Of a stretch of 64,000 nucleotides of DNA, positions 14,864 to 62,150 are shown one piece after another (positions within the stretch are counted from its first letter, which is position 1; each line of letters begins with the position of its first letter). The notes under the pieces are model-generated. The model saw only the letters and a program-made list of their open reading frames with translations, had not been told where the DNA came from and made no database searches. A program made the translations under genes and the position numbers. Source of the DNA: Brachionus manjavacas (Eukaryota; Rotifera; Eurotatoria; Ploima; Brachionidae); NCBI GenBank assembly GCA_019054805.1, contig JAHQIY010000002.1, positions 248,001-312,000 on the forward strand, read 5' to 3'.

Positions 14864-15627
14864 GGCATTGTGAAATTTCATACAAAAATTCCGAAACAAA
14901 ACTTAAATTCTTAATAAAAATTTGACTTTTGAACTACCGATTTTCTGTAATATTTAAAAGGTAAAACAAAAAATGTTTCATTTAACAGTCCAATTTAAGA
15001 AAAAATTTAAATAAATATTTCCAATAAACTGATTGTTTTTAATCAAATTTACGTTAATCTAGAATAAAAAATCACTTCCTAATTCAAAATTATTTGAGTA
15101 GCGATGACAGGATTTTAACATTTAAATAAAATAAATTCACAAAAAGCAAAAAAAATTCAAATTCTTATTTTTTTACAAATAATTTTGTAATTTCTAAAAA
15201 ATTTTTTATTATTATATTTTGCTTTTTTCTTTCTCTTTTTCTTTTGATATTAATTTGTAAAAAAAATAAAAAAATTTCGGTCATTTAGATCCTGAAGAAG
15301 CCTTAATCAAGGCGAAACGCGTCGATTTAATATAAAAATTTAAATTATTTAATATTTTTATTATATTTTTATTATTTTTTATAATAAAATAAAAATTTTT
15401 TTTAAAAAAATCAAATTTAATAAACTCCAAAATATTAGTATTTTTTTTCAATCATTAATATTTTTCTGTTAATAAAAATTAATCTTTTTTTTTCTAGTTA
15501 AACATATTTTGTTTCATGTTGTTTCATCGTCAAATTTTGAAAAGCTCAATTTTGTCAATTTAAATAAATGAAAACGAATTTTATTTTTGAAATTTTGGGA
15601 AAGTTTGTATGAAATTTCACAATGCCG
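14864..15627. mobile_element. Non-autonomous TIR element with 8-bp target duplication
   Basis: The ends are perfect 23-bp terminal inverted repeats (14864-14886 and 15604-15626, starting GGCATTGTGAAATTTCATAC). They are flanked by the same 8 bp, GAAAATAG, at 14856-14863 and 15628-15635. It is 764 bp long with no transposase. The 8-bp duplication points to hAT-type or similar integration, although the ends do not begin with the usual CAGGG. The interior is A/T-rich and holds the hammerhead-like motif at 15286-15329. It sits just beyond the 3' end of XPNPEP3. Confidence 0.75.
15286..15329 (+). ncRNA. Hammerhead ribozyme-like motif
   Basis: Stem I: TAGATC (15286-15291) pairs with GATTTA (15324-15329), 6 bp including one G-U. 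Core: CTGAAGA (15292-15298), matching the hammerhead CUGANGA. Stem II: GCCTT (15300-15304), loop AATC, AAGGC (15309-15313), 5 bp. Then GAAA (15314-15317), a short ACG/CGT stem III (15317-15322) and GTC (15321-15323) at the expected cleavage site. Very short stem III is known from hammerheads in Penelope-like elements and retrozymes, which may act as dimers. One departure from consensus is the extra A at 15299 between the core and stem II, which could weaken activity. The alternative is the 3' hairpin of a LINE, since similar CTGAAGA..GA(A)AAC ends occur at 23252 and 50967. Confidence 0.45.
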
Positions 15628-15666: not shown

Positions 15667-17415
15667 TTATTGACTATTTAATAATTTTTCTAGTTCTTCA
15701 ATTTCTTTTGGGCAGTTTCGGCTCAGAATTTCACAGCCATTCTCTGTAATAACTATATCATCTTCGATTCTTATACCAATTCCTCTGTATCTAAAAGGAA
15801 CACTTTCATCATTTGGTTTGATGTAAATTCCGGGCTCTATGGTAATAACTGTATTCGGCTCTAGATCATTATGCTTGGAGACTTCTGGACAATCGTGCAC
15901 ATCAAGACCCAAATAATGGCCAACATCATGTGCACAAAAGTTTGCCAGTTTGCGCAAGTAAACAACCGGTACGGGGCTTGTCTCTGGTTCACTTGATTTA
16001 ACATAGCTTTCGTGTTCGTTCCTGTCAACCAAGCCTATTTGACTTAGCTCATCTCCCAGTTTGCGCATCATCATGTAGTAAAGCTTTTGTATTGAGATAC
16101 CTGGCGCACAATTTGCTATACAATGCTTCTGAACATTTAGACAAGCTTGGTAGAGCTCCTTTTGTTCCTTACTAAACTTTCCATTTACTGGCCACGTTCT
16201 TGTTATGTCACTTACATATTCATTAAATTGACACCCAGCATCCATGAGCACTAGTTCACCATTTTTAATAATTTGATTGTTCCTGATGTAATGTAGAGTT
16301 GTTGCTCTTGGGCCTCCTGCAATCACCGGTATGTAACCAAGATAGGAAGCACCTCTAATTCGACAATCAAAATCAAATTTGGAGTAAATCAAATGTTCAT
16401 TTATAAAAGGATGAGATATTTGAATGGAGTTTAGGAAAGCTTCTGACGAAATGTCACATGCCTTTTTCATCAATTCCAACTCAGACTTGGATTTATTCAC
16501 GCGACATAGCTGAACAAAATACCGCGATGTGTTGAAATACGAAGCACTAGCAGAGTTATCAAGGCTTTCGAGTGCGTCCATGTCTATGAGCCTATTGGAG
16601 TCACATTCATTGACAAAGCAATCCAAAGCGGACTCGACAGCCTCATTGAACACATTTGGACCAGACTCTTGCTTAACCACATGCTCAGTTGGATAGCGCC
16701 AAAGACTTATTTTTCTATTTGAACTACTCTCTTTAACTAGAGAAAAAAGGTATTGTTTAAAATCCTGAATTGGATAAGCATTTTCAATTCCGCAAAGTTT
16801 TCTAATGTTCTCAGGTCCAGTGCACGGACCGTCCCAAAGTTCTTTTTTTGGATTTTTTTCTTTCACAAAAATAGCTGTTTTGTATGAATTTCTATCATTG
16901 CCGGTTCTAGAAATGACCAAAGCAGACTCGGGCTCATTAAAACCAGACAAGTACATAAAATCACTGTTTTGCTTGAAAATGAGTGGAACATCGGGTGCCA
17001 TGTATGCAGTCATTGAACTTGGAATGACGGCAATGAAATTATGATCAATGGTTGATAAATCAAAGCCATTTTGTATCCATTGATTGAGAGGCATTTGACC
17101 AAATTTGAATTTTTCTGATGAGCTTAGCTTGGTCGAAAAGTAAAGCATTTGATAATTGGTCAAATTGGTAACATAATTGAACCGTCTTTGTTCAAACTCT
17201 TGTCTGGAGATGCCCGGAGTAACCTGCTTGTTGAAATCACTTGGATCCGGCGTATGAAATAGATGAGGATGAGTCCAGAAAGTAGGCTGACCAAGTTCTT
17301 GTACCAATTGATTATTAGAGCATGATTTCATGCTTTTGTCTTTGGTAAAAGATGAATATTTGATAAATGAAGAGATAAATGATTTTCTATGTTTGATGAT
17401 ATAATTATTCAGCAT
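15667..17415 (-). CDS. XPNPEP3: Xaa-Pro aminopeptidase 3 (mitochondrial)
   Basis: This is an M24B metallopeptidase that removes N-terminal residues preceding proline; the family member XPNPEP3/APP3 acts in mitochondria, trimming imported proteins. It is a single exon of 582 residues (human 507). N-terminal aminopeptidase-P domain: residues about 60-240, with GQPTFWTHPHLF near 42 and SDFMYLSGFNEPESAL near 150. Catalytic domain from about 310: the metal ligands are visible as LMDAG (first Asp), SDITRTWP (second Asp), AHDVGHYLGLDVHD (His), TIEPGIY (Glu) and RIEDDIVIT (Glu). The first 30 residues (MLNNYIIKHRKSFISSFIKY) lack acidic residues and are rich in Lys, Arg and Ser, as a mitochondrial presequence should be. 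Insertions between the domains explain the extra length. A 57-codon LYR ORF lies 93 bp upstream on the same strand. Confidence 0.9.
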   Translation of the reverse strand: MLNNYIIKHRKSFISSFIKYSSFTKDKSMKSCSNNQLVQELGQPTFWTHPHLFHTPDPSDFNKQVTPGISRQEFEQRRFNYVTNLTNYQMLYFSTKLSSSEKFKFGQMPLNQWIQNGFDLSTIDHNFIAVIPSSMTAYMAPDVPLIFKQNSDFMYLSGFNEPESALVISRTGNDRNSYKTAIFVKEKNPKKELWDGPCTGPENIRKLCGIENAYPIQDFKQYLFSLVKESSSNRKISLWRYPTEHVVKQESGPNVFNEAVESALDCFVNECDSNRLIDMDALESLDNSASASYFNTSRYFVQLCRVNKSKSELELMKKACDISSEAFLNSIQISHPFINEHLIYSKFDFDCRIRGASYLGYIPVIAGGPRATTLHYIRNNQIIKNGELVLMDAGCQFNEYVSDITRTWPVNGKFSKEQKELYQACLNVQKHCIANCAPGISIQKLYYMMMRKLGDELSQIGLVDRNEHESYVKSSEPETSPVPVVYLRKLANFCAHDVGHYLGLDVHDCPEVSKHNDLEPNTVITIEPGIYIKPNDESVPFRYRGIGIRIEDDIVITENGCEILSRNCPKEIEELEKLLNSQ

Positions 17416-17508
17416 TTTTAGATTTAAATTAATCGTTTTTTGATCAAAAATGCTTCACCTTTCTTCAATAAAATATAATTTTTATTTCAAAAAATTTAAA
17501 ATGATTTT

Positions 17509-17682
17509 TTAGAAATTTACTCGGTAAAGCCGTTCGATATTTAGTTTATCCAAAGGATCTGCGCTTTGAAATTGGTTTCTTATGTATGTTTGATAGAATG
17601 TCTGATCTGTAAATTTCAGTTGTTTACCATACCTGTAAAGATTCTTGTATAAATTTAAAATCAAACTTTTTGTAACAAGCAT
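17509..17682 (-). CDS. 57-residue LYR-motif small protein
   Basis: ATG at 17682 to TAA at 17509, no intron. The protein opens with hydrophobic residues, then has LYKNLYRYGKQLKFTDQTFY, TYIRNQF and LNIERLYR. The L-Y-(K/R)-x-L followed by GKQL-x-(F/Y)-TD-x-x-FY-x-x-x-IR-x-x-F is the hallmark of the LYR/Complex1 family, and it is closest to the short mitochondrial micropeptide encoded upstream of MIEF1 in mammals (LYR, GRQLRYTDRDFY, IRREF). LYR proteins bind mitochondrial acyl carrier protein and act in mitochondrial assembly, including the mitoribosome. It lies in the 5' flank of XPNPEP3, same strand and same frame, with stop codons between. An AATAAA on the minus strand (17481-17486) could end a separate transcript; otherwise this could be an upstream ORF of a shared messenger. 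It has fewer residues than most LYRM proteins, so a missing C-terminal exon is possible. Confidence 0.7.
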   Translation of the reverse strand: MLVTKSLILNLYKNLYRYGKQLKFTDQTFYQTYIRNQFQSADPLDKLNIERLYRVNF

Positions 17683-18659
17683 TTAAAAATTTCAAAAATA
17701 TTAATTTGAAATTTTGCATTCAAATTTTTCAGATATAAATATTTAAGTTTTTTTTTATAAAATAGTAAATTTAACCCAACATTATTTCAATATTAAATCT
17801 GACAGTTTTTCTTTTTCCTTTCAAAAAAAAAACTATCTTTTAATTTTAAAAGAAGACAAATTCAATTTTATTAGTGATTAAATCAAATTGTATTTTGAAT
17901 AATACAAAATTTGAATTCAAAAAATAAATTAAAGTAAGTTCAAACAATAAATTTGATTCCTTTTTACAGTTCAATTATGATTTTCAAATTTTTTAAAAAT
18001 TGAATTTATGTTCAAACTTTAAATTAATTTAGATATGTTTTGATTTTTTGTGTTTGAATTACAAAATGTATACAATGTTGAAATAATATTGAAAAAGTGC
18101 GTTCAGTTTTAAGAAAAAAAAAATTAAAAAATTTAAATTAGCTTCAATTAATTCTTTAATTTTAAATTAAATTTTTCATAAATTAAATGTTTGTTAAAAT
18201 GCATCAAAAAAAAAATTTTAAAATTGAAGTCAAAATTTAAAAAGAAAAAAACAAAGTTTTCAATTTAGAAAAAAGATAATGTAATATTAAAAAATAATAG
18301 AAAAAAAGTTACATAAAAAATTTAAATTCGGGCGTAGTAGATAAAATTTGCGAAATAGATGAATCTTTGTTGCCCAAAGTCAAACACTTAGTGAAAAATT
18401 AATTTTTAATTTTCTTTAAGATTTAAGTAAAGAGCGTATTTGGGTATTTGGGATTGTTGTAACACCAAGTCAGTCAGAATAGACAAAATTCTATTTATCT
18501 AAAGCTCCTTCAAATTAAAAAAAAAAACAAAAAAAAATTTTAACTAATTTTTGTACCATTTTCGAGAATAGGTATTCTATTAAAGGCAAAATGATATTTT
18601 GTCAATTAATTTATATAAATGTCATTTAAAAATAAATATTTGTCAACTAAAACTAGTTA
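17683..18659. other. AT-rich spacer upstream of the LYR ORF
   Basis: No ORF or repeat I can support. Presumably it holds the promoter of the LYR/XPNPEP3 unit, but no motif is distinguishable from the A/T background. Confidence 0.35.
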
Positions 18660-19429: not shown

Positions 19430-20190
19430 TAAACGAGAATAATGAATTAATAATTAAGACAGACAACAAAAAAACACTTGAATCCTTGAAAATTTTGCCT
19501 GATAAAGCATTCAAAGTAGGTTTGGAGGAAATCAGAAAACAGTCAAAACACTATCTCGCGCTCGACAACGTAGACCCGAATTTTGACGTTTCGTCGCAAA
19601 AATTAAATGACTTAATTATGAAAGAATATGATATAGATGGGATGCTAAGAATTTAAAAAAAATCAACAAAGCAAACATTGACACTCGTTAAAGCAGTCAC
19701 GTATAATACCATTAATTTTAGTAAAATTATCAATGATGGATACATAAAAATTTGTCAAACTCGTGTCAAAGCAACAGCCTGGAAATTCGGCAATTCTCCG
19801 GACCAATCTTTCAAATGTCAAGAATTCGGGCACATAACGAAAAATTGTGAAAAAGAAAAGCAAGTGTGCTAAAGATGCATATCATCACTTCAGTAAGTGT
19901 AATGTTACTGACCCATCAAAATATAAGTGTGCTAACTGCAACGGAAACCACGCTGCATGTTCAAAAATTTGTCCAGTTTTGTAAAGAGCTTTACAAAACA
20001 AGATGAAAAAACAAGAAACAATTGCAAGTAAAATCTCGACCAGAATAGAATCAGCTGCTCCAACGATCTTTAACAATCACCAGAATCATAATGGGAACAA
20101 AAATACGATTGGATCAATCTTTAGATAGACATTTTCAGAAAGCTGAATAAGATTCAATCGACAATAAATGAAAATCCTAAGCCTTTCTTA
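19430..20190 (+). mobile_element. LINE ORF1 (gag-like, zinc-knuckle) relic
   Basis: The reading frame, broken by stops, encodes a gag-like protein ending in zinc knuckles: FKCQEFGHITKNC near 19815-19855, then C-x-x-C..KC near 19873-19895 and YKCANCNGNHAACSKIC near 19922-19975. Triple CCHC knuckles at the end of ORF1 are typical of jockey/CR1/I-type LINEs. Its ORF2 would be the relic at 20469-21720, now separated from it by a solo LTR. Confidence 0.55.
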
Positions 20191-20468: not shown

Positions 20469-21720
20469 GACCTTATTGGTAAACATTTAGGTCACAACAT
20501 TCACCATGAGTTCAGCAAACACCTTGCTTTGCCTAAAACTAGTGAGGAAGAAATGAACAACTCGTTTATTAAGAACGAAAATGATCAATTTTTAAGACTT
20601 TCAAATAAGCATTAGAAAATGAACTCACCTAAACAAAAGAAGCTTTTCAACATGATAGAAAAAAATCTAAGAAATAACCTGGCAAAATAAAAGCAGGAAA
20701 AATTCAGTCAAAAGTTCATTGAACTTCAACCAAAGTAACCCAAAACACTGGAAACTTTTAGATAATCTTGACCTGCAAAACAGCTTTAATCAAACAAAAT
20801 TCAAAATCGAAAAAAATTCCTACACCGAAGATGAAATTTAAATAGCCAGCCTTTTCCCAAACAATTTTGAAGAAATTTTTTCAAATCAAAAAAGTTTGCA
20901 AATACCACAATTTGTAAGCAGACAAACAACCTACTCCATTGACCCATTAATAACATTTAATGACTTAAGGGATTTGTTTATCACCAACTTTGTTTACTAG
21001 CTATTTAGTGATTTTATTAATCTAAACCGGTTGACGTAAAAGTTGGTCTTTTTGCTGATGATCTATTTTTCTGATAAGTAATTTAGTTTCTATTTATTTT
21101 TAATTATTAAAAATAAATTACAAGAGTGCATTTACAATTTTCAAAAATTCTGCGATTGTTACCAATTCACAATAAATCCGAAAAAAAACAACTTATAACG
21201 GGTTTACATCAGGTGGACAAAGACACAATTACCATGCTAAGTTCAATTTAGACTTTTGAATAAACCAAATGATAAAACCTTTAACAGCGGATCCTATTTT
21301 CCTTGAAATCAAACTTGACCCAAAGCTAAAATACGATCAACATTTAAACACGGTGATCCAGAAAATGATAATTAACCAAAGACAATTCAAAAATTAAAAA
21401 AATTAAACTTTAAAAACTCGATTAAACTAGAGATGATGTATTACAAAGCTAAAACAAGATCAACCATTGATTTCTGGCATATAATCGCAAGCAAAGACAG
21501 ATTTAATTTAAATAAGACACCGCAAGTCATACTAAACAAAGCTCTCAAACAGATTCAGCGATATAAATTTAAAAACTTCTTGAAATTAATGGAAAAAAAG
21601 ATGAATCAAGACCTATTTATCAAAAAAGAAATAAGCCAATCCAAAATAATCAAAACATACCTGTGCAACGCTGGCCAAAAAAATTGGTTCCAATTGAAAT
21701 TTTTATAGACAAAAAATACT
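20469..21720 (+). mobile_element. LINE ORF2 relic (endonuclease-RT linker to thumb)
   Basis: Fragments in order: ALPKTSEEEMNNSFIKNEND (linker), TEDEI..ASLFPNNFEEIF and a YSIDPLITFNDLRD block (start of RT), GLFADDLFF near 21042-21070 (the catalytic [FY]-x-DD motif), YQFTINPKKT, LEIKLDPKLKYDQHLNTVIQ near 21305-21360 (thumb start), and a basic C-terminal stretch to 21700. The expected RT palm segment before FADD is largely deleted. Stops and frameshifts throughout show it is long dead. Confidence 0.6.
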
Positions 21721-21949
21721 TTTTCTTATTGAATAATTTAATTTGTAATTTAATCATATATCTTCTTTTTTGGGGGGTATTTCTGTTTTATTTTTAAACT
21801 TTTTTTAAAATTACACAAAAACAATTTTATTATTCTATTTTTAAATCACATAAGGTCTAAAAAGAAGGCATAAAGCCATTCGGGAGAGTCCTAGTGGTAA
21901 GTCCCTCAAAAAATTTGTTTTAAAATAAAATAAAAAAATATCGATCGGA

Positions 21950-23290
21950 AATCAAGTTTAATCCTAAAAAAACCCAATCATTGAGAATCAATGGATCAAA
22001 TAGAGATGACAAACGACTAATCTTTTGTGGCGAAGATGTTGAATTGGTAGATAAATTTAAATATCTGAGTGTATGGGTAGATGGTAAATGTTTCAACAAG
22101 GAACAACTAAGGGAACGAAGACTCAGAACATGGATAGCATTCTACTTACTCAAAACAAACCTAGATATAAGTAGTAATCACATAAACCCACAACGAAAAG
22201 CTCACCTGTTTAAAACTTACGTAATGATAATGAATTATGGTTTAGAAAATTGTATCATTAGCCTAATGATCTCATTTTTACGGTAAAAATGAGAGAAAAA
22301 ATATTCAAAAGATGTATGGACTAATGATTAAACAGATGCTTTTGCTAAGCAAAAGATCAAGGACGACAAACCTATTATATGCACTCAATATAGAACCAGT
22401 GGACTCAAAAATAAGGAAAACAAAACTTGGCTCTACCAAAAGAATCCTTGAAAATGAATAACCTATAAAATACTAAAAAACAATGAAAACAAAGTTAACC
22501 GACTAAATAAATTCATTAAAGAATTACAAGACATATTAGGCCCATGCAAGACATTGAAAAAGGAAGAAATAAACGAAAAAATAAGAAAAATTAAACTTGA
22601 AGATATAAAATCAGCCAGAATGGGATTTGCGAATCAATTAAATTTTTTTTTGAAAACCTAAGAGAAAGAAACAATTAACTTAAATTACCGGTTAAAGTTC
22701 ACTTCAATTGAAAGGGACCTATGAAGTATTAAAAGATATTAAAAGATATTCCTTGGACCCAGTTAGTTTCGATCCACGTAACCTCCGGAAGAATTGTTTG
22801 TTTCATTGTAGAGGTGCTGGTAATGAATGCAGTGGACCTCTCTCCTAGGACGGTGATTGTTAAAAAAAGGAAAAAAAAATCATTTTATTATTTTATTTTT
22901 ATTTATTTTTTTATTTGTTAACATCACTAAATTTGGCGTAATTTTTTGAAATAAATAATAATAATAAATTGCTTGTTCACATAATTTGAAATTTGTTTAT
23001 AAAATCTGTGTGCCACATGTAACAATCTATTTCTTCTTAACTTTCAACCAAAAAACCTGAGAACAAGAATTTTTCGCATAAAAGGTGAACTATGATTCAC
23101 CTAACCGACTAGATCCAGTTTTTCAACGATTAAATTTAAATTTTAATCTAAATGAATTATTTATCTTTTTTCTTTCTTTTTTTTTGTTTTTATTAATTTT
23201 TTCTTTTATTTTATTAAACTTTATTTTTTCTTTTTTTCTTATATTTTTATTCTGAAGAAGCATTAGCTCTGTAGCGATAAACAAATAAAT
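21950..23290 (+). mobile_element. LINE 3' half with 3' UTR and terminal hairpin
   Basis: A thumb-region frame near 21960-22290 (KRLIFCGEDVELVDKFKYLS, then RAHLF/AHLFKTYVMIMNYGLEN) continues in pieces to about 22700. After a non-coding part comes a 3' end shared with the LINE at 50935-51056 on the minus strand: about 37 bp almost identical at 23010-23046, and the terminal CTGAAGAAGC (23252) followed by AAACAAATAAATAAA. The shared end defines one LINE family with two copies in the window. Confidence 0.6.
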
Positions 23291-24821: not shown

Positions 24822-25445
24822 GGTAAAAAACGCAACGTCGAAAGCAAATCGTTTATTAGGAATGATAAGAATATCGTTTAAATTTCCTATGCTCGAGTTG
24901 ATTAGGTTACTATACTGTTCACTTGTCAGACCGCACTTAGAATATGCGATATGCTCTTGGTGTCCTTATTTTGAATAGATGTGAATGCGCTGGAAAAAGT
25001 ACAAAGAAGAGCGTCTAAACTAGTTCATGAACTGAGTCATTTAGACTATTCGGAACGACTATCAAAGTTAAAATTAATCGACTTGAAAACAAGAGAGTAC
25101 GTGGCGATTTGATTCAATTAGTTAATGGTATAGAGATTGTGAATTTTACCAACGGGATCAACTATAGTTTAAACACCAAGATGGAAAATCGAAGATATGA
25201 GTTGAGAAGACACGGACAGAACCTCACACGAGAGCAAGTTAGGAGTTGTTTTCCTAGATTTAACTTTTTTATAAACAGGGTTGTCAATGATTCGAATAAA
25301 CTACCGGAAGAAATTATCAACTCAAGGAATACAATCAGTTTCAAAGCAAAACTTGATGTTTGGATGGCGAAACGATTTGAAGCGACTGCTATAGCTCATT
25401 AGAGCTCTGCTTGGTTGACTCCAAGCTGCAGTTTATTTTTTTACA
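24822..25445 (+). mobile_element. LINE reverse-transcriptase C-terminal relic with 3' tail
   Basis: Blocks in order: KNATSKANRLLGMIRISFKF, LYCSLVRPHLEYA near 24905-24945, A-L-E-K-VQRRASKLVHEL near 24985-25030, DYSERLSKLKLIDL near 25040-25085, RGDLIQLVNGIE (25098 on), then RRHGQNLTREQVRS, SCFPRFNFFINRVV and a stop at about 25400. Two frameshifts interrupt it. The sequence after the stop (TTAGAGCTCTGC, then CTGCAGTTTA) is shared with the minus-strand LINE ending at 50530, so they belong to one family. Confidence 0.7.
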
Positions 25446-36246: not shown

Positions 36247-37323
36247 TAGGGATGTGCATTAAGTATTAAGTACTTAAAAAAATTTAAAATTAAGTAAATA
36301 CTTAAGTATAAATACTTAAGTAAAAAATTCGATTTTTTTTAAAGTGTTTAAGTAAGACCGAATTTACTTAAGTATTTAAAAATACTTAACTTTTTGACTA
36401 ACATTCATGATTTCAGATTTTTTTTTATTTCATTTGTTTATGATTGCAAATAAAAAAAATAATTTCACACACCAAATAAACATAATTTTTTTATGCAGTA
36501 TTACTTTTAGACTTAAAGAATATGGCTAATGAACTTGACCGGTCTTTGAAATCGAGATTCAGCTTTGTCGAAACAAATCCAATTTACGTCGTCGCCACCC
36601 TACTAAACCCATCGTTTAGTTTCTTATTTAACGACCCAGATGAATAATTGTTTTATGAGCGGGTGTTAAAAGAACAATTTTTAAATTACATAAGACCCCA
36701 AAGTAACATTAATACTGAACCGTCCAATAAATCTAGCACCCCGACAAAGTCTTATTTGTTTATTGAAAAGCCATTAGTAAATCAAAGTGCCTTGAATCTA
36801 ATAGAAGTTAATAATTTTATCAACTACATGAAGACCTTTGTTTATGAGGAAAACTTTCAATTGAATGGGTTTTGGAAAGCGATGGAATCTTCCAATCCTA
36901 AATTAGCCAAGTTTGCTAAAAAAATATTCACGACCCCTGATACTTCAGATTCAGTTGAAAGAACTTTTAGCATAGGGGGAAACATCCTTAGGCCAAAATG
37001 AGCTAGGCTAACAGATAAAAATTTTTCTTCCTTAATTTTTTTAAAATGTAACTATATGTTTCATTAATTATTAGGTAATTAGAAAGATTTTATATTAAAT
37101 TGTATTAAGCCCAAATTTTTGCAATTAAATTTTGATAAAAAATAGCTTTTTTTTTTGGATATTTTATTGAAAAAAATTTAATTACTTAAGTATCATGATA
37201 AATACTTAAGTATTTACTTTAAAAAAATTGAAAAATGGACTTAAGTTTAAGTATTTACTTAAAAATGTGGTCCATTTACTTAAGTATTGAAAATACGATT
37301 TAAGTACTTAATGCAGATCCCTG
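36247..37323 (+). mobile_element. hAT transposon, internally deleted, with perfect 8-bp target duplication
   Basis: Terminal inverted repeats are TAGGGATGTGCATTAAGTA at the left and, read inward from the right, CAGGGATCTGCATTAAGTAC. The identical 8-bp TTACCAAC flanks both sides (36239-36246 and 37324-37331), the signature duplication length of hAT elements. Subterminal AAGTACTTAA/AAGTATTTA motifs are dense at both ends, as expected for transposase-binding repeats. The 1,077-bp body retains only the end of a transposase gene. Confidence 0.85.
36520..37060 (+). pseudogene. hAT transposase C-terminal fragment
   Basis: An in-frame TAA near 36643 splits the reading frame. Upstream: LDRSLKSRFSFVETNPIYVV then ATLLNPSF. 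Downstream: FWKAMESSNPKLAKFAKKIF, then TTPDTSDSVERTFSIGGNIL, the diagnostic hAT C-terminal dimerisation motif (W..A..P.L...A...L..P.[ST]S...ER.FS..G). The DDE catalytic core and zinc finger are absent, so this copy cannot make active transposase and would depend on another element. Confidence 0.8.
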
Positions 37324-39677: not shown

Positions 39678-40486
39678 TTAAATAGTAGCCAAATAATCTT
39701 TAACTTCAGACGGAGTCAACTTTCTGAATCCACTTTTGTTGCACACGCCGATTTCAATATTTTCCTCGGTCATTTGGCCTTCAAAAGACTCTTTCAAGGT
39801 CAATATGGCCGTATGAATGGCATCTTCCATTTCCAATTTTTCCGAATATCTTTTTTCCAAAAAAGTCTTGCCATTTATGTGATTTTTACCAATAGCAGTC
39901 GCTTTCCAAGCAAAATAAGCACCCTAGACAATATTTATACAAAAAGAATCTCAAAAAAAATACAAATTTTTACAGATGGATCACACTGATACAGATAAGG
40001 CACATCTTCATCAACATCCCAGCCAGCGATCAAAAGAGAAACCCCAAATGGTCTTACACCTCTTAAAAAAATCTCATTGATAATTTTTATCATCGAGTGC
40101 TAGAATTTTTGTTACCCTGATTGAGTGTACTCCTGCATGACATCCGCCACCCGTCGGACCAACTGAACAGTCGGTATTGAGTCGTCATACATTTGGATGT
40201 ATTGCTGGCCTAATTTCCGGGCATATTTTACCAAAAGACGATAGTCGGGCCCCATTCCGCTGTACACCATGCCGACATTTGAAGTAATCGGCTCAATTTT
40301 GCTTATACTCCTGTCATCGTTTAGTGTAGACTTTTGTTTTTTTTCTGTGGCCAAAACGACACCATTTGTGGCCTTGATTCCAACAGATGGAGCGCCGGCA
40401 GCTACGGCGTTCAATGCATACTCAATTTGAACCAGCTTTCCCGAAGGACTGAAGGTGGTCAGCGAAAATCCGTATCTCTCAGACAT
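39678..40486 (-). CDS. PSMA2: Proteasome subunit alpha type-2
   Basis: An alpha-ring subunit of the 20S proteasome; non-catalytic, it helps form the gate. Exons are 40486-40116, 40061-39974 and 39923-39678 with 54- and 50-bp introns; all junctions are in frame and total 234 residues, the same length as human PSMA2. The start [20 protein letters not shown], followed by [17 protein letters not shown], is the alpha-type N-terminal signature. Other family text: [27 protein letters not shown] joined to [35 protein letters not shown], and ending in [11 protein letters not shown]. An in-frame ATG further upstream exists (at 40639) but would add residues unlike any alpha subunit, so the ATG at 40486 is preferred. 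Divergent from DNAAF5. Confidence 0.95.
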
Positions 40487-48577: not shown

Positions 48578-51500
48578 ATGAGCCACAAATTGGACCTTTT
48601 AAATTCTGATAAAATTAAACAATTTGAATTAGAAAGAATTGAAACTTTGCCCAGCGGATATGAGCGTCAGTCCAAAAAAGGGGTAATCATTTTTTTCAAA
48701 CTGTGCCATTTGGATAATTGATACACCAAGGTACTGACCAAATATTTGATGCTCTCCCTTCTGGTTGCAGCATTCGGCTCTGCCTTCCAATTTGGTTTTA
48801 GCATCGCGATCTTCAACACACCATCAGATGTAAGTAATAAAAATTTTAAACCAAATTTAAATATTTTTCTAAGGTTATTCAATCATTCTATAGAGATGTT
48901 TACAGTGAGCGCAATGGCGAGTCAATGCCTGATTCAACACTCAATACTTACTGGTCGATCACAAATGGTTTAGTCCCGTTTGGTGGAATGATCGGTGGCA
49001 TGTTTTCAGGATTTACCGGAGACTTATTTGGAAGGTAATTTTGAAACCTAGAGAACTTCAATTTAAATCAAATCAAATTTTTTTAGAAAAAATGGCTTGT
49101 TATCAGTAAATGCTATTGTCCTGATAAGTACAATATTGAATGTGATATCAAAATTTATCCGATCTTATGAAACCATATTGGTTTCACGTTTTTTAACAGG
49201 CTTATATTGTGGTCTATTTTCTGGCTTGTTGCCTCTTTACTTGTCTGAATGCCCTCCTAAAAATTTAAGAGGGTCTGTTGGAACTTTGAACCAACTTTCG
49301 ATTGTGACCGGTATCTTGGTTGTGAACATCTTAGGTCTGCCAGAATTGCTCGGCAAAGCAGATAGATGGCCTATTTTAGTCGGCCTAAGTCTTGTTCCTG
49401 CTTTAGTTCACATATTGCTGGTAATTTTTCCAGAATCTCCTAAATTTCTTTACATGAAAAAAAATGATGTGTCAGGAGCTGAAAAATCGCTCGTTAAATT
49501 CCGCAATGATGACAGAGTTCTGATCGATGAGGAGATGGAAGAACTTAAAGAAGAAAAAGCAAAAACAGCTGACAATGCGCACGCGGCTTGGGGAGATTTT
49601 TGGACCAAGGAAAGTTTGAGAAAACCTCTTTTTGTGGCTTTAATGATTCAAATTTCGCAGCAATTTTCTGGAATCAATGCAGTTATTTTTTATTCAACAG
49701 CAATATTCAAAAATGCTGGTTTAGAAGGAGAATGGCCAATTTATGGAACCATTATACTTGGCGCTGTGCAAATAGCAATGACATTTGTCTGCATGGTTAT
49801 TGTTGATAGAACGGGTAGAAGAATTCTTTTACTCACTGGAATGATTGGAATGTGCTTATTCTCTTTTATGCTGGCTTTATCTAGGATATTTAGTGTAATA
49901 TTTGGCATTAAGAGTTTGTTTGGAAAAATTTAATTAAAATTTTAGGACAAAGTTGAATGGCTCAATTACATGACAGTGGTGGCTGCAGTTTTTTACATCA
50001 TATTTTTTTCAATCGGACCAGGTAGTTAAAATTTTATTGAAACTAAAATTAAGAAATTATTTTCATAAAATCGTGAAAATCATTTTAAAAAAAATTTGTT
50101 TTATGTGTAATCTTAAAAGTAACACATAAAATGAAAAAAATATTTTATGTAATCCTATTTTGAAAATACTGAGGATTTTAGTAAAAATTAATATTAAAAG
50201 TTAAACATGAGAAAAAAGCATTAGTTTATCTCATAACTGAGATCAACTTTAAAATACATCTAGAATTCTGGTCAAAATAGGAAGTAAAATAGAAGCATTT
50301 TATTTTTTGTTCAATTTTAAAGAAAAAGATTAATAAAAAAATTTTTAAACACATTTTAAATTAAAATTAACAACTAAAAACAATAAAAAAATTATCCAAA
50401 TTTTTTTCCGAGAAGTTTTTAAAATCTTTTTCTTTTTTCATATAACTTTGATAATAACAAACCAGCAAAAATTTTTTTCAGGAATTTTTTTCAATCATTA
50501 AATTTTTTTCAGGAAATTTTATGAAATTTTATAATTATTAAGTAGTAGTAGTTTAAACTGCATCTTAGACGCTATCTAAGCATAGCTCTAAAGAGCTGTA
50601 GTATTTTCTTTTTTAAGTTTCACCATCCAACCATTTAGACATTTAGATAAACTATTTAGATTCTTTGCATTTACGGGCAATGTGAAATATTAGTACAAAA
50701 ATTACAGTATAAAAAGTAAAAACGCTATAAATTTTTTTCTAATTGTGAAAAACTCTGCATTTTACAGAAAAATGCAGTGTTTTTGCAAAGCTTGGTATTC
50801 GTTTGCAAAAAATTTGTACAATATTGTATTGTTTACAAAATTTTTACAGTAGTTTATTCGATCACATGTTAGACAATAGCTATTTCTCTTCAATTCATAT
50901 CATCGGCTATCAGGTTTGTTTTAATTATTATTTTATTTATTTGTTTTCTGTACCGAGCTAGGGCTCCTTCAGGATAAATTAAAAAAAAATCAAAATAAAG
51001 TAAATAAGCTAAAAAAAAATGAAAGTTAAGAAGACATAGATTGTTACATGTGGCACATGTTTACATAGTTAAGGTTTTAGGAAAAAAGGAGGAAATAGTA
51101 AGGTAGCAATTACAGAATGGAGTTGGGTATTCAATAAATCTTGATTCGAAATCTTCTTTGCATTCTTTCACCAGTCTTACGACCAATGGAATAGAATGAC
51201 TAAGTCCTGTCCCAACATATCTCTCACTCAACTCAAAAAGACGATTTGAGACTGTTAGTAATTTAAGTTTATTAAAAGCTTCATGATGCACGATGTCGGA
51301 GGGAGTATCATATTTTAGGATAGATCTTACTACTGTATTCTGAATTGCTTGTAGTTTTTTGATATAATTTTCTGAAAATGAATTCAAGCAAGGAAAAGAA
51401 TAGTCTAAAATTGATCCGTCTAAAGATTTACATAATTTTTCTAGTGTGTTTTGAGTAAGACCCCATTTTTTATTTGACAATATCTTAATAATATTTAGCC

Positions 51501-53776
51501 TTTTATTGTAGCGTTCTTTAATTTCGTCAACTAATATTTTAAAATTTAACTTAGAATCAAATTTTATACCAAGAAACTTGATTTATTTTTGGCTCATTAT
51601 TCTGTTTCCATAAATTTTTAAGTTTAGATTATCAATCTCTTTTTTTTACTTAGAGAAGACTACTCAACAAGTCGGGTTCAGTATTAAGACTGTAATTGAA
51701 TCTTTTATTAAATTCAATTTGTTCATAATTATTTACCAATTTGTGCATCTGAATTAGATCACCTCTTAATCTTCTTGTACTCAAATTAGTTAAATCTAGC
51801 TTTAATAAACGTTGTTGATAGTCCAAATCACAAACTTCTGGAATCAATTTAGTTGCATTTCGTTGAACCTTCTGAAGCTCATTTATGTAAGGGCCACCAA
51901 GCACTGACAGCATATTCCAGGTGTGGTCTAACCATGTAACAATACAATAATTTTATAGTCTCGCTACAAGGATACTTAAATGCTTTCTTAATTAAGCCCA
52001 ATATTCTATTTGCTTTATCTGTAGCATTTTTGATTAGGGTTGTCCATTTTAAATCACTTTGAATGTAAATACATTTATCCCATTCAACATTTGACTTCCA
52101 AAGTTTTTGAACGAATCTTATTGTCAAACTCTGGATTTTAATTGCCAGTATGAACAACTTTGCATTTATTTACATTTAACTGACTCTTTTGACCATTTAC
52201 ACTTTTATCAGTATCTGATTGTAAGTTAGAAACCGAGTTAAAATTATCAATTGTTGATAAGATCTTCGTGTCGTCAGTATAAGCTTCACAATGACTTTGG
52301 ACAATATTCAACATATCGTTTATGTAAATAATAAAGAAGAGAGGACCTAGCACTGAACCTTGTGGAACTCCACTTTTAACTTCTACCCAACTTGAGTTGG
52401 TATTCCGTAATACAATCTTTGAGAACGATCTAAAAGCAACGCCTTTATCCAATTTATCAGGCCTTCACCAAACCCAAAAAATTTGAGTTCTTACAGAAGT
52501 TTTCTATGAGAGACTTTATCGAAAGCTTTTGCAAAATCTGTGTAAATGATGCCAACCGGTAAGCCATTCGATGTCGCTTCAGCAGTAAAATCTAAAATTT
52601 CCATCAAATTGGTCAGACATGACTTTTTTGTAAGAAAGCTTGCTGTGATGTGGAAATTAATTTGTTTTAAAATTGTTTTAAAATGCTCTAAATTGGTTCT
52701 TTATTTATAGACGATAGGAATTTACAATAAAAGTTAAAGATACTGGGCGATAATTCTGGGGAGAGAGTCTAAATTAAATCATTAAAAACATTTTTTTAAC
52801 CATAATTTTCTGATTTTAATTAATTATTAAAAGAGATAAAATTCACAAAAAATTGATTTATACATTTTTTATAAATTAAAAAAATATAATTAAAAAATAT
52901 TTTTTTAATTTATAAAAAATTGGGATATTCGATTAAAATTTCTGCTTACATATTCGTTTAATTCAATTGATTTGCATTAAATTAATCTTAAAATAATTAA
53001 AATTCAGTATTAACACTGTATATAATTTTGATCAAAATTTTATTCAAAGTTTTAAAAAAGCAGATTCTTATATTTAAATGATTCTTAAGCAATTATTTAA
53101 AAAATTACAAAATTTACTTTGAAAATTAATTGCTTATTTTAAAGCGTAATAAAAACTTCTGGAAATTGTTTTAAAAATTTTTGTTTGTCCGTATTCATTC
53201 AACTTATTTTGTTAAATAAATTTTAAAAAGTCTTATCTTATCAAAGTTTTCTTCTTATAAGATTAACATTTAAGTTGATATAAGAAAAAATGAGCTTTTA
53301 AATGTAAAATTTTTATTAAAAAAATGATTTTACTTAAGATTGTTGTGTAAAAACTCAAAATATAAATAGTGATCGAATCTTATCAAAATAATCTAAAAAA
53401 TCTATTGATCCAAATTTTTTTAAAAATACTAATTAAGGTGCTATCCCATGGTTAATAACGGGTGAATTATTTGGTTCAGATTCAAGAGGAAAAGCCACTT
53501 CAATTTCAGTGTTCGTCAACTGGCTTTCTAATTTTATTGTCACAGTAAGTTTTGTATCAATGAATAGGTACTTTTTAAAATTCTAAATTATAAAAGGTTA
53601 CGTTTCCGTTTATTGAATCAGCTATAGGAAGTTATAGTTTTATTGTATTTGGAGTTTTATTGATATTCTTTTCCCTTTTTATGCTTTTTTTTGTTCCTGA
53701 AACAAAACATAAGCCAATCGAAGAAATCAATGATATGTTCAAGAGAAAAACAATATTTTTTCCTTCATCGAATTAA
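48578..53776 (+). CDS. SLC2A: Facilitative sugar transporter (GLUT/SLC2A family)
   Basis: A 12-helix major facilitator, probably for glucose or related hexoses at the plasma membrane. Seven exons, 48578-48682, 48731-48829, 48874-49034, 49087-49894, 49946-50021, 53438-53544 and 53597-53776, join in frame to about 511 residues. An in-frame TAA at 48572 fixes the start. Landmarks: AAFGSAFQFGFSIAIFN (helix 1), FGGMIGGMFSGFTGDLFGRKNG (GRR/K loop 2-3), LYLSECPPKNLRGSVGTLNQ, PESPKFLY (the PESPR position before the long loop), QISQQFSGINAVIFYST (helix 7 QQxSGxN), DRTGRRILLL, SIGPG joined to AIPWLITGELF, and VPETKHKPIEEI at the end. These fit class I/II GLUTs. Exon 5 ends at GPG, and the 3.4-kb intron after it is full of nested LINEs; the other introns are 44-52 bp. 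Confidence 0.93.
50530..52760 (-). mobile_element. LINE relic in transporter intron 5, interrupted by a second LINE
   Basis: Reading down the minus strand: VKSGVPQGSVLGPLFFIIYI then NDMLNI (RT block), YTDDTKILS (the catalytic YADD, with the Ala changed), LKWTTLIKNATDKANRILGL, LLYCYMVRPHLEYAVSAWW, LQKVQRNATKLIPEVCDLDY and RLRGDLIQMHKLVNN down to about 51655. After the inserted LINE (51645-50935) the family's tail appears at 50640-50530, sharing TTTAGAGCTATGC and CTGCAGTTTA-like text with the copy at 25.4 kb, then a (CTA)n tail. Frameshifts make it dead. It is antisense to the transporter. Confidence 0.75.
50935..51645 (-). mobile_element. Nested 5'-truncated LINE of a second family
   Basis: Minus-strand text FLGIKFDSKLNFKILVDEIK, KERYNKRLNIIKILSNKKWG and TLEKLCKSLDGSILDYSFPC then LNSFSENYIKKLQAIQNTVV is the thumb-to-C-terminus of another LINE clade. 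The 139-codon end (51480-51061) is intact. The 3' UTR (51056-51020) and terminal CTGAAGGAGC...AAACAAATAAATAAA (50972-50935) match those of the LINE at 21950-23290. It splits the older LINE of 50530-52760, which gives their relative age. Confidence 0.75.
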
Positions 53777-59504: not shown

Positions 59505-62150
59505 AATAAAGGACGTTAGTAAACTATAACCATAAAAATAGTAAAACATACCACAAATTTAATAATACAACCACTAATTTAGAAATAAATTCACACATTT
59601 TAATTTTTTTCCATTAATTTAATAAAAATACTACAATTATCTTGATCAAACAATATTTTTAATAAAAATGCCCTTATATTCGATTAAAACTCCACTAATT
59701 AAGTAAAAAAAATTCAATCAACTTGATAAGCGACAGTTAACTCTTATACTATTTGAACCAGTAAAATGAAAGTTTTTTTCATTCAAAAATGTCTGAAACA
59801 CAGTCAAAAGAAAGCATTTTAGAAGATCCATTAGACCAAACTTATGATGACACTGATCAAGATTGGGACGACGTGTTAAAACCACAAAATCAAAAAAAAC
59901 GTGGCAAAGCAATTACTTACGAGCTTTATCAACCATTCCAAGAATACGACCAAATTGTAAAACAAATAAAAGAAGGTAACATCAATGGTAACAATTGGAT
60001 ATTCAAGAACAAAGATGGAGATAAATATCGTTATTATTGTAAGTTTCACAAACAAGGCTGTCGCGCAGCTCTTTACTTACAATTAACAAGTGGCTCTTGT
60101 GGAAATTGTTTCATTTCTGATGAAGAGCATTCAAATCATGAAACAAACACAGAAACTCCAAGAGAAGAAATAGATGATGCAATGTATCAAAAAATTTTAG
60201 AGCTTGAAAATTTGGGTATCAAACCAGAAGGTATTTTAAAAAATCTACTCAAAAATCGATTTCAACCACCTCAAAAAACAAAACTAAACAATATTTTAAA
60301 AACGATTCGAAAAGCAAAAAAAGTCACTAATCAACCAACAATGAACGATCTGAAAAGGTGGTGTGAAGAATACAATGAAATTCCTGACGAAGAGGATAAA
60401 GTTTTTGTCGGTGAATACGAATTACAAGCATTTCCAGATTAAAAATTTAGAGTCTTACTAACAACTAAACGATTGTTAAAACTATCAATTGATTCAAAGT
60501 ATATATTATCGGATGCAACGTATAAATTAATCTACGGTGGATTCCCAGTGATAACAGGTGGAACAACGGACAAAAATAAAAATTTTCATCCATTCGGCAT
60601 TGCGTTATGTTCTTCTGAAAACAATTTCGACTTCGCTTTTTTTTTTAGAGCTATCAAATCAGCATGTTTCAGAGTATACGGTCATTCAATCAGTCCATCA
60701 ATCTTAGTCGCTGATAGCGCTGATGCCATAACGCTCGGATTTAAAAAAGTTTTCAATTTAACAAAAAGAGTAAATTGTTGGGCGCACGTAATAAGACGAA
60801 TAGATAAACGATTGTTAGTTTTTGTTGAACCAGTACGAAAAGAGCTGAGAGAAGACATAGTAAATATTCAAAAAATTTTTCGCAACGATTTGTTTTATCT
60901 CGCAACGGATTTATTCAAAAAAAAATGGCTCGCGAAAAAAAACAAATCAATTGATGATTTTGTCGAATATATTTTCGTAACTTGGATCGAAAAGGACAAC
61001 GGATGGTATGAAGGATATATTAAAGATATATGTTTTCCGTCAACGAGCAACGGTCTTGAATCTAGTCACGATAAGATCAAGCAAGCTCTTCAAAATAAAA
61101 GATTAGGAATCATCGAATTTTTGAATGAGTGTCGTTCGAATTTAGTCGAATATTGGTCCCAACAACGATCGTAAACAATTTCAACAATCAACAAGTTACC
61201 AACATTTCAAACGAGTTCGAAAATTTAAATCACAAAAAATTTCACACAGAGCCAATTATAGATAAAAATGATCTATTAGAAGCTTACAAATGGAACGTCA
61301 AAAAAAAAACAATACAACATCTTGGCGAATTTTACATGGTTAAAAGTGGTAAAGACAAAAATTCAAAAAATTTGTCACGTGACGACTGCAAACAATTTTT
61401 ACAACGCTTAGATGAAAAACCTTGGGACAATTTCAACCAAATGATCAATGATGTTTTTAGTATTCGTTTGATTAAATTAAATCAACAAAATTGGAAAAAC
61501 ACAACTTGTACATGTGTTGATTGGTTAAAAAACTACAAATGCTATCAATTGCAATTGCGTATCGTCTCAAATTGGTCAATTTCAATAGCATTTTTATGGA
61601 TCAACCTATATGCAACAAAAGAAAGAGAGGGGCTGCAAAAAAAACTTTAAAAAGCCTACAATACCAACCTTCAGATTTAGTTAGTGATGAAGAAGAAACT
61701 AATGATGAAGAAAATGGTATCGAAGAAGAAATTACACAACCGAATAAAAGGATTCGTAATAATATACCAACAACAAGCTCAGATGTACCAACAACAAGCT
61801 CAAATAAATCAACTTCTAATCTCTCAAACTCTGAAAATATTTGCAAAAAATGTGATATGCCTATGAAAAAAAAGAAATATTTCTACTGTATTAATAAATG
61901 CAAACAGTAATTTTTTTGGTGGAATTTTGAAACAAACAATAATTATTTTTGTGTAACTTTAATGAATTTTTTGGTAAATCTATTAATAAAATGGTAAAAA
62001 AACTAAATTTGTATTATTTTTAATTATTTTGAGGATAAATAATTAAAATTAAGATAAAAATACTGAAAATATGATAATTTTATTAAATTTGTGGTATGTT
62101 TTACTATTTTTGTGGTAATTTTTAACTAATTTTGAGGTATTAAAATATTA
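59505..62150 (+). mobile_element. MULE (Mutator-like) DNA transposon, nearly complete
   Basis: Terminal inverted repeats include a perfect 32-bp match at 59534-59565 and 62080-62111 (AAAAATAGTAAAACATACCA then CAAATTTAATAA), extending outward with mismatches (TTAGTAAACTATAACC at 59516, TTAGTTAAAAATTACC from 62134 on the opposite strand). The element is about 2.6 kb and encloses one transposase gene. The exact ends and the 9-11 bp duplication usual for MULEs could not be fixed because the flanks are low complexity. Confidence 0.8.
59789..61910 (+). pseudogene. MULE transposase, disabled by one stop and two frameshifts
   Basis: N-terminal FLYWCH-type zinc finger: NNWIFKNKDGDKYRYYCKFH, KQGCRAALY and HSNHE at residues 65-130. 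DDE core: SDATYKLIYGGFPVITGGTT (first Asp), PSILVADSADAITLGFKKVF (second Asp), NCWAHVIRR, and STSNGLESSHDKIKQ (Glu). C-terminal SWIM zinc finger: CTCVDWLKNYKC, whose following histidine region is lost by frameshift. A glutamate-rich tail and a final C-x-x-C..C-x-x-x-C knuckle end at 61910. Lesions: TAA at 60440-60442, a frame change near 61150-61170, and another near 61530-61560. Otherwise well preserved, so inactivation is recent. The MULE fragment at 18.7-19.2 kb is from a different family. Confidence 0.85.

Follow-up and report, generated by a model that had tools for sequence, protein, structure and literature searches.

A probable MIEF1 microprotein gene ahead of XPNPEP3 in the rotifer Brachionus manjavacas, likely on a shared messenger

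On its minus strand, the analyzed 64,000-nucleotide (nt) stretch of Brachionus manjavacas DNA (the window, C2:248001-312000) carries a small frame homologous to the MIEF1 microprotein (MIEF1-MP, also known as AltMiD51 or L0R8F8), which lies directly ahead of the frame for the mitochondrial Xaa-Pro aminopeptidase XPNPEP3. The explanation that we judge best, and probably right as a whole, is that the small frame belongs to a two-exon microprotein gene that is dicistronic with XPNPEP3, that XPNPEP3 is reached by leaky scanning and that the microprotein has a role at the mitoribosome. The microprotein thus appears to be a known one whose host messenger here differs from the known host. Searches described below as genome-wide covered the 114 Mb assembly of 61 contigs.

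The small frame, as an open reading frame (ORF) scan gives it, has 57 codons from its ATG (17682 to 17509) and is followed, after 93 nt, by a frame of 582 codons that starts at 17415. The initial annotation had reported this ORF, had ascribed an LYR signature to it and a resemblance to the MIEF1 upstream ORF, and had proposed either a bicistronic transcript with XPNPEP3 or two very tight genes. What it observed is partly confirmed and what it made of it partly supported. The pairing of a MIEF1-upstream-ORF-like peptide with a mitochondrial peptidase emerged stronger than had been claimed, based on matches in the PDB and the scores against MIEF1-MP. The frame is likewise real, on the minus strand and ahead of a genuine XPNPEP3 gene, but its boundaries are probably wrong because of an intron that would give a product of 66 residues, and in the spliced frame the reported 93 bp gap to XPNPEP3 shrinks to 8 nt. 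The features, all on the minus strand, are as follows:

17521..17682, minus strand: exon 1 of the MIEF1-microprotein-like gene, with 54 codons counted from its ATG (ORF; PDB match to the MIEF1 upstream ORF protein at E 4.4e-6 over residues 5-46)
17463..17520, minus strand: probable 58-nt intron, GTAAAT...TTGAAG, which holds the stop of the unspliced frame (17509-17511) and an AATAAA (17481-17486)
17424..17462, minus strand: predicted exon 2, encoding KGEAFLIKKRLI and a stop (17424-17426) (translation; longer match to human MIEF1-MP)
17416..17423, minus strand: 8-nt spacer between the cistrons, positioned from the spliced frame
15667..17415, minus strand: XPNPEP3, mitochondrial Xaa-Pro aminopeptidase, 582 codons in a single exon (ORF, domains and PDB match)
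15580..15585, minus strand: AATAAA 3' of the XPNPEP3 stop, a candidate shared poly(A) signal (pattern position)

Identity of the two proteins

Comparison of the unspliced 57 residues with PDB sequences (E-values up to 10) gave six distinct matches, and the four significant ones were all MIEF1-microprotein entries. Two of these are named MIEF1 upstream open reading frame protein (4.4e-6 each) and two 'Predicted gene 55359' (1.3e-5 each), which was taken as the mouse counterpart of the microprotein. The other two matches were weaker, at 0.24 for a NUDIX protein and 1.3 for a Complex1-LYR-like chain. When the 66-residue product of the predicted splicing was used, the best E-value was 2.5e-7 and a trypanosomatid chain named L0R8F8 (6yxy) was added weakly, at 0.77. 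The LYK at residues 11-13 and F38 of the small protein align with the LYR and F of human MIEF1-MP, so the motif is not the LYR that had been quoted, although it stands where the human LYR does. The protein is encoded in single copy in the genome. Judged by this homology, we assign it with high confidence as an ortholog of the MIEF1 microprotein.

It is highly improbable that the protein is instead another member of the LYR family, such as LYRM5/ETFRF1, with which it shares the LYK variant of the motif and an overall similarity. The spliced protein scored 100 against the human MIEF1-MP segment and 98 against the mouse one, versus 77 against the genome's own LYRM5-like protein, which is the product of a distinct gene (C5:2142434, its two exons joined for the comparison) and which itself scored 60 against human MIEF1-MP. 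Partial exons of four other LYR genes of the same genome gave 22, 21, 31 and 20. The comparison that disfavors LYRM5 thus covers human and mouse MIEF1-MP and the five other LYR sequences of this genome, four of them partial. As a separate observation, the LYRM5/ETFRF1-like locus (C5:2140934-2144065) has a 104-nt intron right behind its NLYKN codons.

Several results weigh against the assignment. The replacement of R by K in the motif is described as typical of LYRM5 (PMC11293456). The Pfam profile searches that had been suggested as a check on the LYR signature gave sub-threshold scores only: with Complex1_LYR_2 (PF13233) the protein reached 17.5 bits unspliced and 17.9 spliced for a cut-off of 22.3, and with PF05347 it reached 13.9 for a cut-off of 24.8. 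As these scores are below their cut-offs, the profile test alone is ambiguous. A whole-genome search with PF05347 returned five matches, presumably LYRM2-, LYRM5-, LYRM4-, NDUFB9- and NDUFA6-like as judged by eye, and the microprotein gene was not among them. A single-sequence structure model of the unspliced 57 residues had three helices but was poor (mean predicted local distance difference test score, pLDDT, 63.9), and in a fold search of the PDB with that model no LYR protein was found, the one match being a designed binder at E 9.3.

The identity of the downstream frame was clear. It contains Peptidase_M24 and AMP_N domains (Pfam), and its best PDB match is Xaa-Pro aminopeptidase 3 (5x49, E 1.9e-105). 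A genome search with 472 of the 582 residues found two places, its own locus and a stop-bearing fragment, 35% identical, on the same contig.

The predicted intron and second exon

The evidence for a second exon came from the end of the small protein. Human MIEF1-MP runs on with EKGLVFL past the point at which the unspliced frame meets its stop. The minus strand has a GTAAAT at 17520, right after a CGA, and a TTGAAG that ends at 17463; joining these sites yields KGEAFLIKKRLI and a stop, giving a protein of 66 residues whose tail, KGEAFL, resembles the human KGLVFL. With the junction, the best match rises from 29.9 to 33.9 bits and the end of the alignment moves from human residue 47 to 63. The conserved KG..FL tail is present only with the predicted splicing and is missing from the unspliced frame. 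In 40,000 trials with random tails translated from the window, the predicted tail's score against the human protein was equaled in 0.14% and its score against the mouse protein in 0.245%; among the random tails of at least 12 residues (n = 16,685) the corresponding values were 0.27% and 0.48%.

To judge the splice sites, an intron model was built for this genome from 38 hand-chosen junctions between adjacent exon pairs, which were taken from profile searches with Ras and proteasome families (141 and 27 matches, respectively). Thirty-six of the junctions lay in 30 fetched stretches and the other two in the window, and the splice sites were fitted iteratively. Candidates were found for 36 of these 38 homology-anchored junctions, and the two without one were dropped. 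Of the resulting introns, 32 of 36 are 41-64 nt long, and an A precedes the final AG in 16 of 36. The window's own contribution was a proteasome alpha-like gene (39744-40399, minus strand) with two short introns of 54 and 50 nt. Under this model the 58-nt intron scored 14.4 bits, exceeding 34 of the 36 leave-one-out sums, and with a strict set of 26 introns it scored 14.6 bits, exceeding 25 of 26. It ranked first of the 22 candidates whose donor lies in this stretch and whose length is 35-130 nt, the runner-up reaching 12.2.

Some counts work against the intron. Equally high-scoring GT-AG pairs, 41-64 nt long, numbered 14 on both strands of the window versus 25 in the reversed sequence, and 49 versus 54 on both strands of 20 other loci. 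Their density is ~0.11-0.12 per kb of strand, such that ~0.02 would be expected per 174 nt. As splice-like pairs are no commoner than in reversed DNA, the score alone proves nothing, and the case for the intron is that score, length, reading frame and conserved tail all coincide at this single site. A further adverse result is that a discarded model without homology scored the same intron at -0.5. That first model had been assembled from pairs of long ORFs and comprised 23 junctions, many of which were implausible (overlapping or antisense frames, lengths of 41-130 nt), and it was replaced. Taken together, the sequence features make it very likely that 17520-17463 is an intron. There is a practical warning in this, in that exon 2 escapes a simple ORF scan, and with it the dicistron is missed too.

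A shared messenger and its translation

With the intron removed, the frame ends at 17424, 8 nt remain before the ATG of XPNPEP3, and the AATAAA at 17486 becomes intronic. A spacing of 8 nt means that no complete microprotein mRNA could have a 3' untranslated region without extending into XPNPEP3. From this spacing we infer that a single dicistronic mRNA quite probably carries both the microprotein and XPNPEP3. We envisage a two-exon nuclear gene, encoding a 66-residue mitochondrial LYR protein, that would be co-transcribed with XPNPEP3 into this mRNA and from which the 58-nt intron would be spliced out. After 17486, AATAAA occurs on the minus strand at 16497, inside XPNPEP3, at 15671, overlapping its stop, and at 15585, beyond it.

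The alternative of the initial annotation in which two tight genes are separated by the AATAAA is disfavored, because both the stop of the 57-codon frame and the AATAAA lie in the probable intron and because only 8 nt lie between the cistrons; the bicistronic alternative is the one we retain. For two adjacent genes, the complete 57-residue frame would end at 17509, the RNA would be cleaved after the AATAAA at 17486 and XPNPEP3 would start within the remaining 93 nt. The unspliced frame and the AATAAA both exist, and intronic polyadenylation could yield the 57-residue form as a minor product. Against this, that form would lack the tail conserved with human and mouse MIEF1-MP, the predicted intron strongly resembles the introns of this genome, and AATAAA is a frequent word in DNA this rich in A and T (a mean of ~72% in the window). 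We therefore regard separate genes as very unlikely. The microprotein gene could also have its intron as predicted while XPNPEP3 has a promoter of its own within that gene, perhaps in the AT-rich intron; the two RNAs would then overlap but start separately. TATA-like AT-rich DNA can be seen by eye inside the intron, and since short leaders are known from Brachionus plicatilis (a mean of 52 bases; PMC1925144) an XPNPEP3 start at ~17450-17470 is conceivable. Matches of the TATA type are, however, expected anyway at ~72% AT, and even with a second promoter the full-length microprotein RNA would still read into XPNPEP3, and we consider this arrangement unlikely. Tight spacing on the same strand would also suit an operon in which a single precursor is resolved by spliced-leader trans-splicing, with XPNPEP3 receiving its leader at, for instance, the acceptor at 17463, and more than half of the transcripts of bdelloid rotifers are reported to be trans-spliced (PMC1925144). 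Against trans-splicing, the same source describes ESTs (expressed sequence tags) of B. plicatilis as showing no leader (PMC1925144). Across the assembly, a search limited to one bdelloid leader sequence gave zero matches with up to two mismatches. Trans-splicing is, in our judgment, very improbable indeed.

Returning to the dicistronic messenger, the base at -3 is a T at the first start, that of the microprotein, and an A at the second, that of XPNPEP3. Ribosomes that initiate at the first AUG, in its weak context, would make the microprotein, and those that bypass it, or re-initiate, would use the XPNPEP3 start 8 nt past the stop. In their sequence, the start contexts suit leaky scanning. The spliced first cistron and spacer contain two AUGs, the microprotein start itself and another, out of frame, that meets a stop after four codons; 3.5 would be expected from base composition, and the deficit is not striking. 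A point that counts against easy scanning is the presence of two more out-of-frame AUGs, 37 and 100 nt upstream of the microprotein start, which would interfere should the leader include them. By analogy with the systems described below, leaky scanning may be the main route to XPNPEP3, a proposal on which we are evenly divided. The AUG 37 nt upstream (17717-17719, minus strand) opens a frame that by eye overruns the microprotein start, which is relevant only if it is in the leader.

Parallels, partners and origin

The closest parallel is the vertebrate MIEF1 mRNA, in which, as here, a homologous LYR microprotein is the upstream cistron ahead of a mitochondrial protein. The human microprotein frame is located in MIEF1 exon 2 (PMC5703645), 98 nt before MiD51, and the upstream protein is reported as the more abundant product (PMC6283296). 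The rotifer arrangement differs in that the downstream cistron is XPNPEP3 rather than MIEF1/MiD51, that an intron probably interrupts the microprotein frame, that the spacing is 8 nt, and that the protein has 66 rather than 70 residues and LYK rather than LYR. The Drosophila genes sloth1 and sloth2 are separated by a 5-nt gap, with a weak and then a strong start context, and reporter mutations backed leaky scanning (PMC9681215). They resemble the pair described here in having a mitochondrial small protein first, a tiny gap and a weaker start followed by a stronger one; the sloth products, however, are both small, related complex III assembly peptides, whereas the second product here would be a 582-residue peptidase. 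A short first frame with a weak start, a short spacer and leaky scanning are also described for bicistronic genes of green algae, and LYR-motif proteins are mentioned among the conserved ones (PMC11291117), although those pairs belong to a different kingdom.

Human MALSU1, L0R8F8 and mt-ACP form a module on assembling large mitoribosomal subunits (PMC8208988), which possibly blocks premature subunit joining (PMC11293456). Consistent with such a partnership, profile searches found three matches to the RsfS domain in the genome, and the RsfS-domain exon on C7 has its best matches in MALSU1 (E 4.1e-25 and 1.6e-22, versus 2.9e-11 for the best bacterial RsfS), so by sequence similarity MALSU1, the known partner of the MIEF1 microprotein, is encoded in this genome. 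From orthology we infer a function in assembly of the mitoribosomal large subunit, in which the microprotein, together with mitochondrial acyl-carrier protein, would hold MALSU1 on the maturing subunit. The other two RsfS loci have GC contents of 46.5% and 32.0%, versus 25.9% at the MALSU1-like locus. The one at 46.5% (C43:58706-61990) possibly marks a bacterial contig in the assembly. Beside the MALSU1-like exon (C7:1753867-1757163) there is a frame that looks UFC1-like, ~140 nt on, on the same strand.

As for MIEF1 itself, zero matches to the MID51-like_C family were found in the genome, in a search for which none of the genomes covered supplied a positive control, and the Mab-21 family gave one match, which we take to be a MAB21L-type protein. 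These results suggest that MIEF1 is absent from the genome. Among the papers listed in literature searches, no title or abstract opening paired the MIEF1 microprotein with XPNPEP3, and an earlier description may exist.

One study holds that MIEF1-MP arose during vertebrate evolution (PMC10032668), and a survey of LYRM proteins treats it as one subfamily in a classification across eukaryotes (PMC11293456). The presence of a clear relative on a different host messenger, in a compact, AT-rich invertebrate genome, favors an older origin and suggests that more than one host messenger can carry the microprotein. Human MIEF1 probably lies at 22q13.1, roughly 1.4 Mb from XPNPEP3. Human XPNPEP3 is listed at 22q13 (PMC8623546). 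It is conceivable, although we think it rather doubtful, that an ancient microprotein gene has long occupied the first-cistron position on messengers belonging to other genes and has switched from one host to another, with the XPNPEP3 pairing being ancestral and the MIEF1 pairing a later rearrangement within one chromosome block. Were the ancestral pairing true, the shared messenger would link the assembly of mitoribosomes to the processing of mitochondrial peptides via the leakiness of a start site. The question raised is why a mitoribosome factor would be made from the mRNA of another gene in two different settings.

An Rfam scan of the window gave zero matches at gathering thresholds. Its other genes include what we take, by eye, to be DNAAF5-like and MAB21L-like genes. 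Pieces resembling mobile elements (zinc-knuckle, reverse-transcriptase, hAT-like and MULE-like) were seen by eye at window positions 19750-20000, 21376-22286 and 25031-25402, and further mobile-element-like pieces at 36648-37001, 51061-51582 and 59765-61910.
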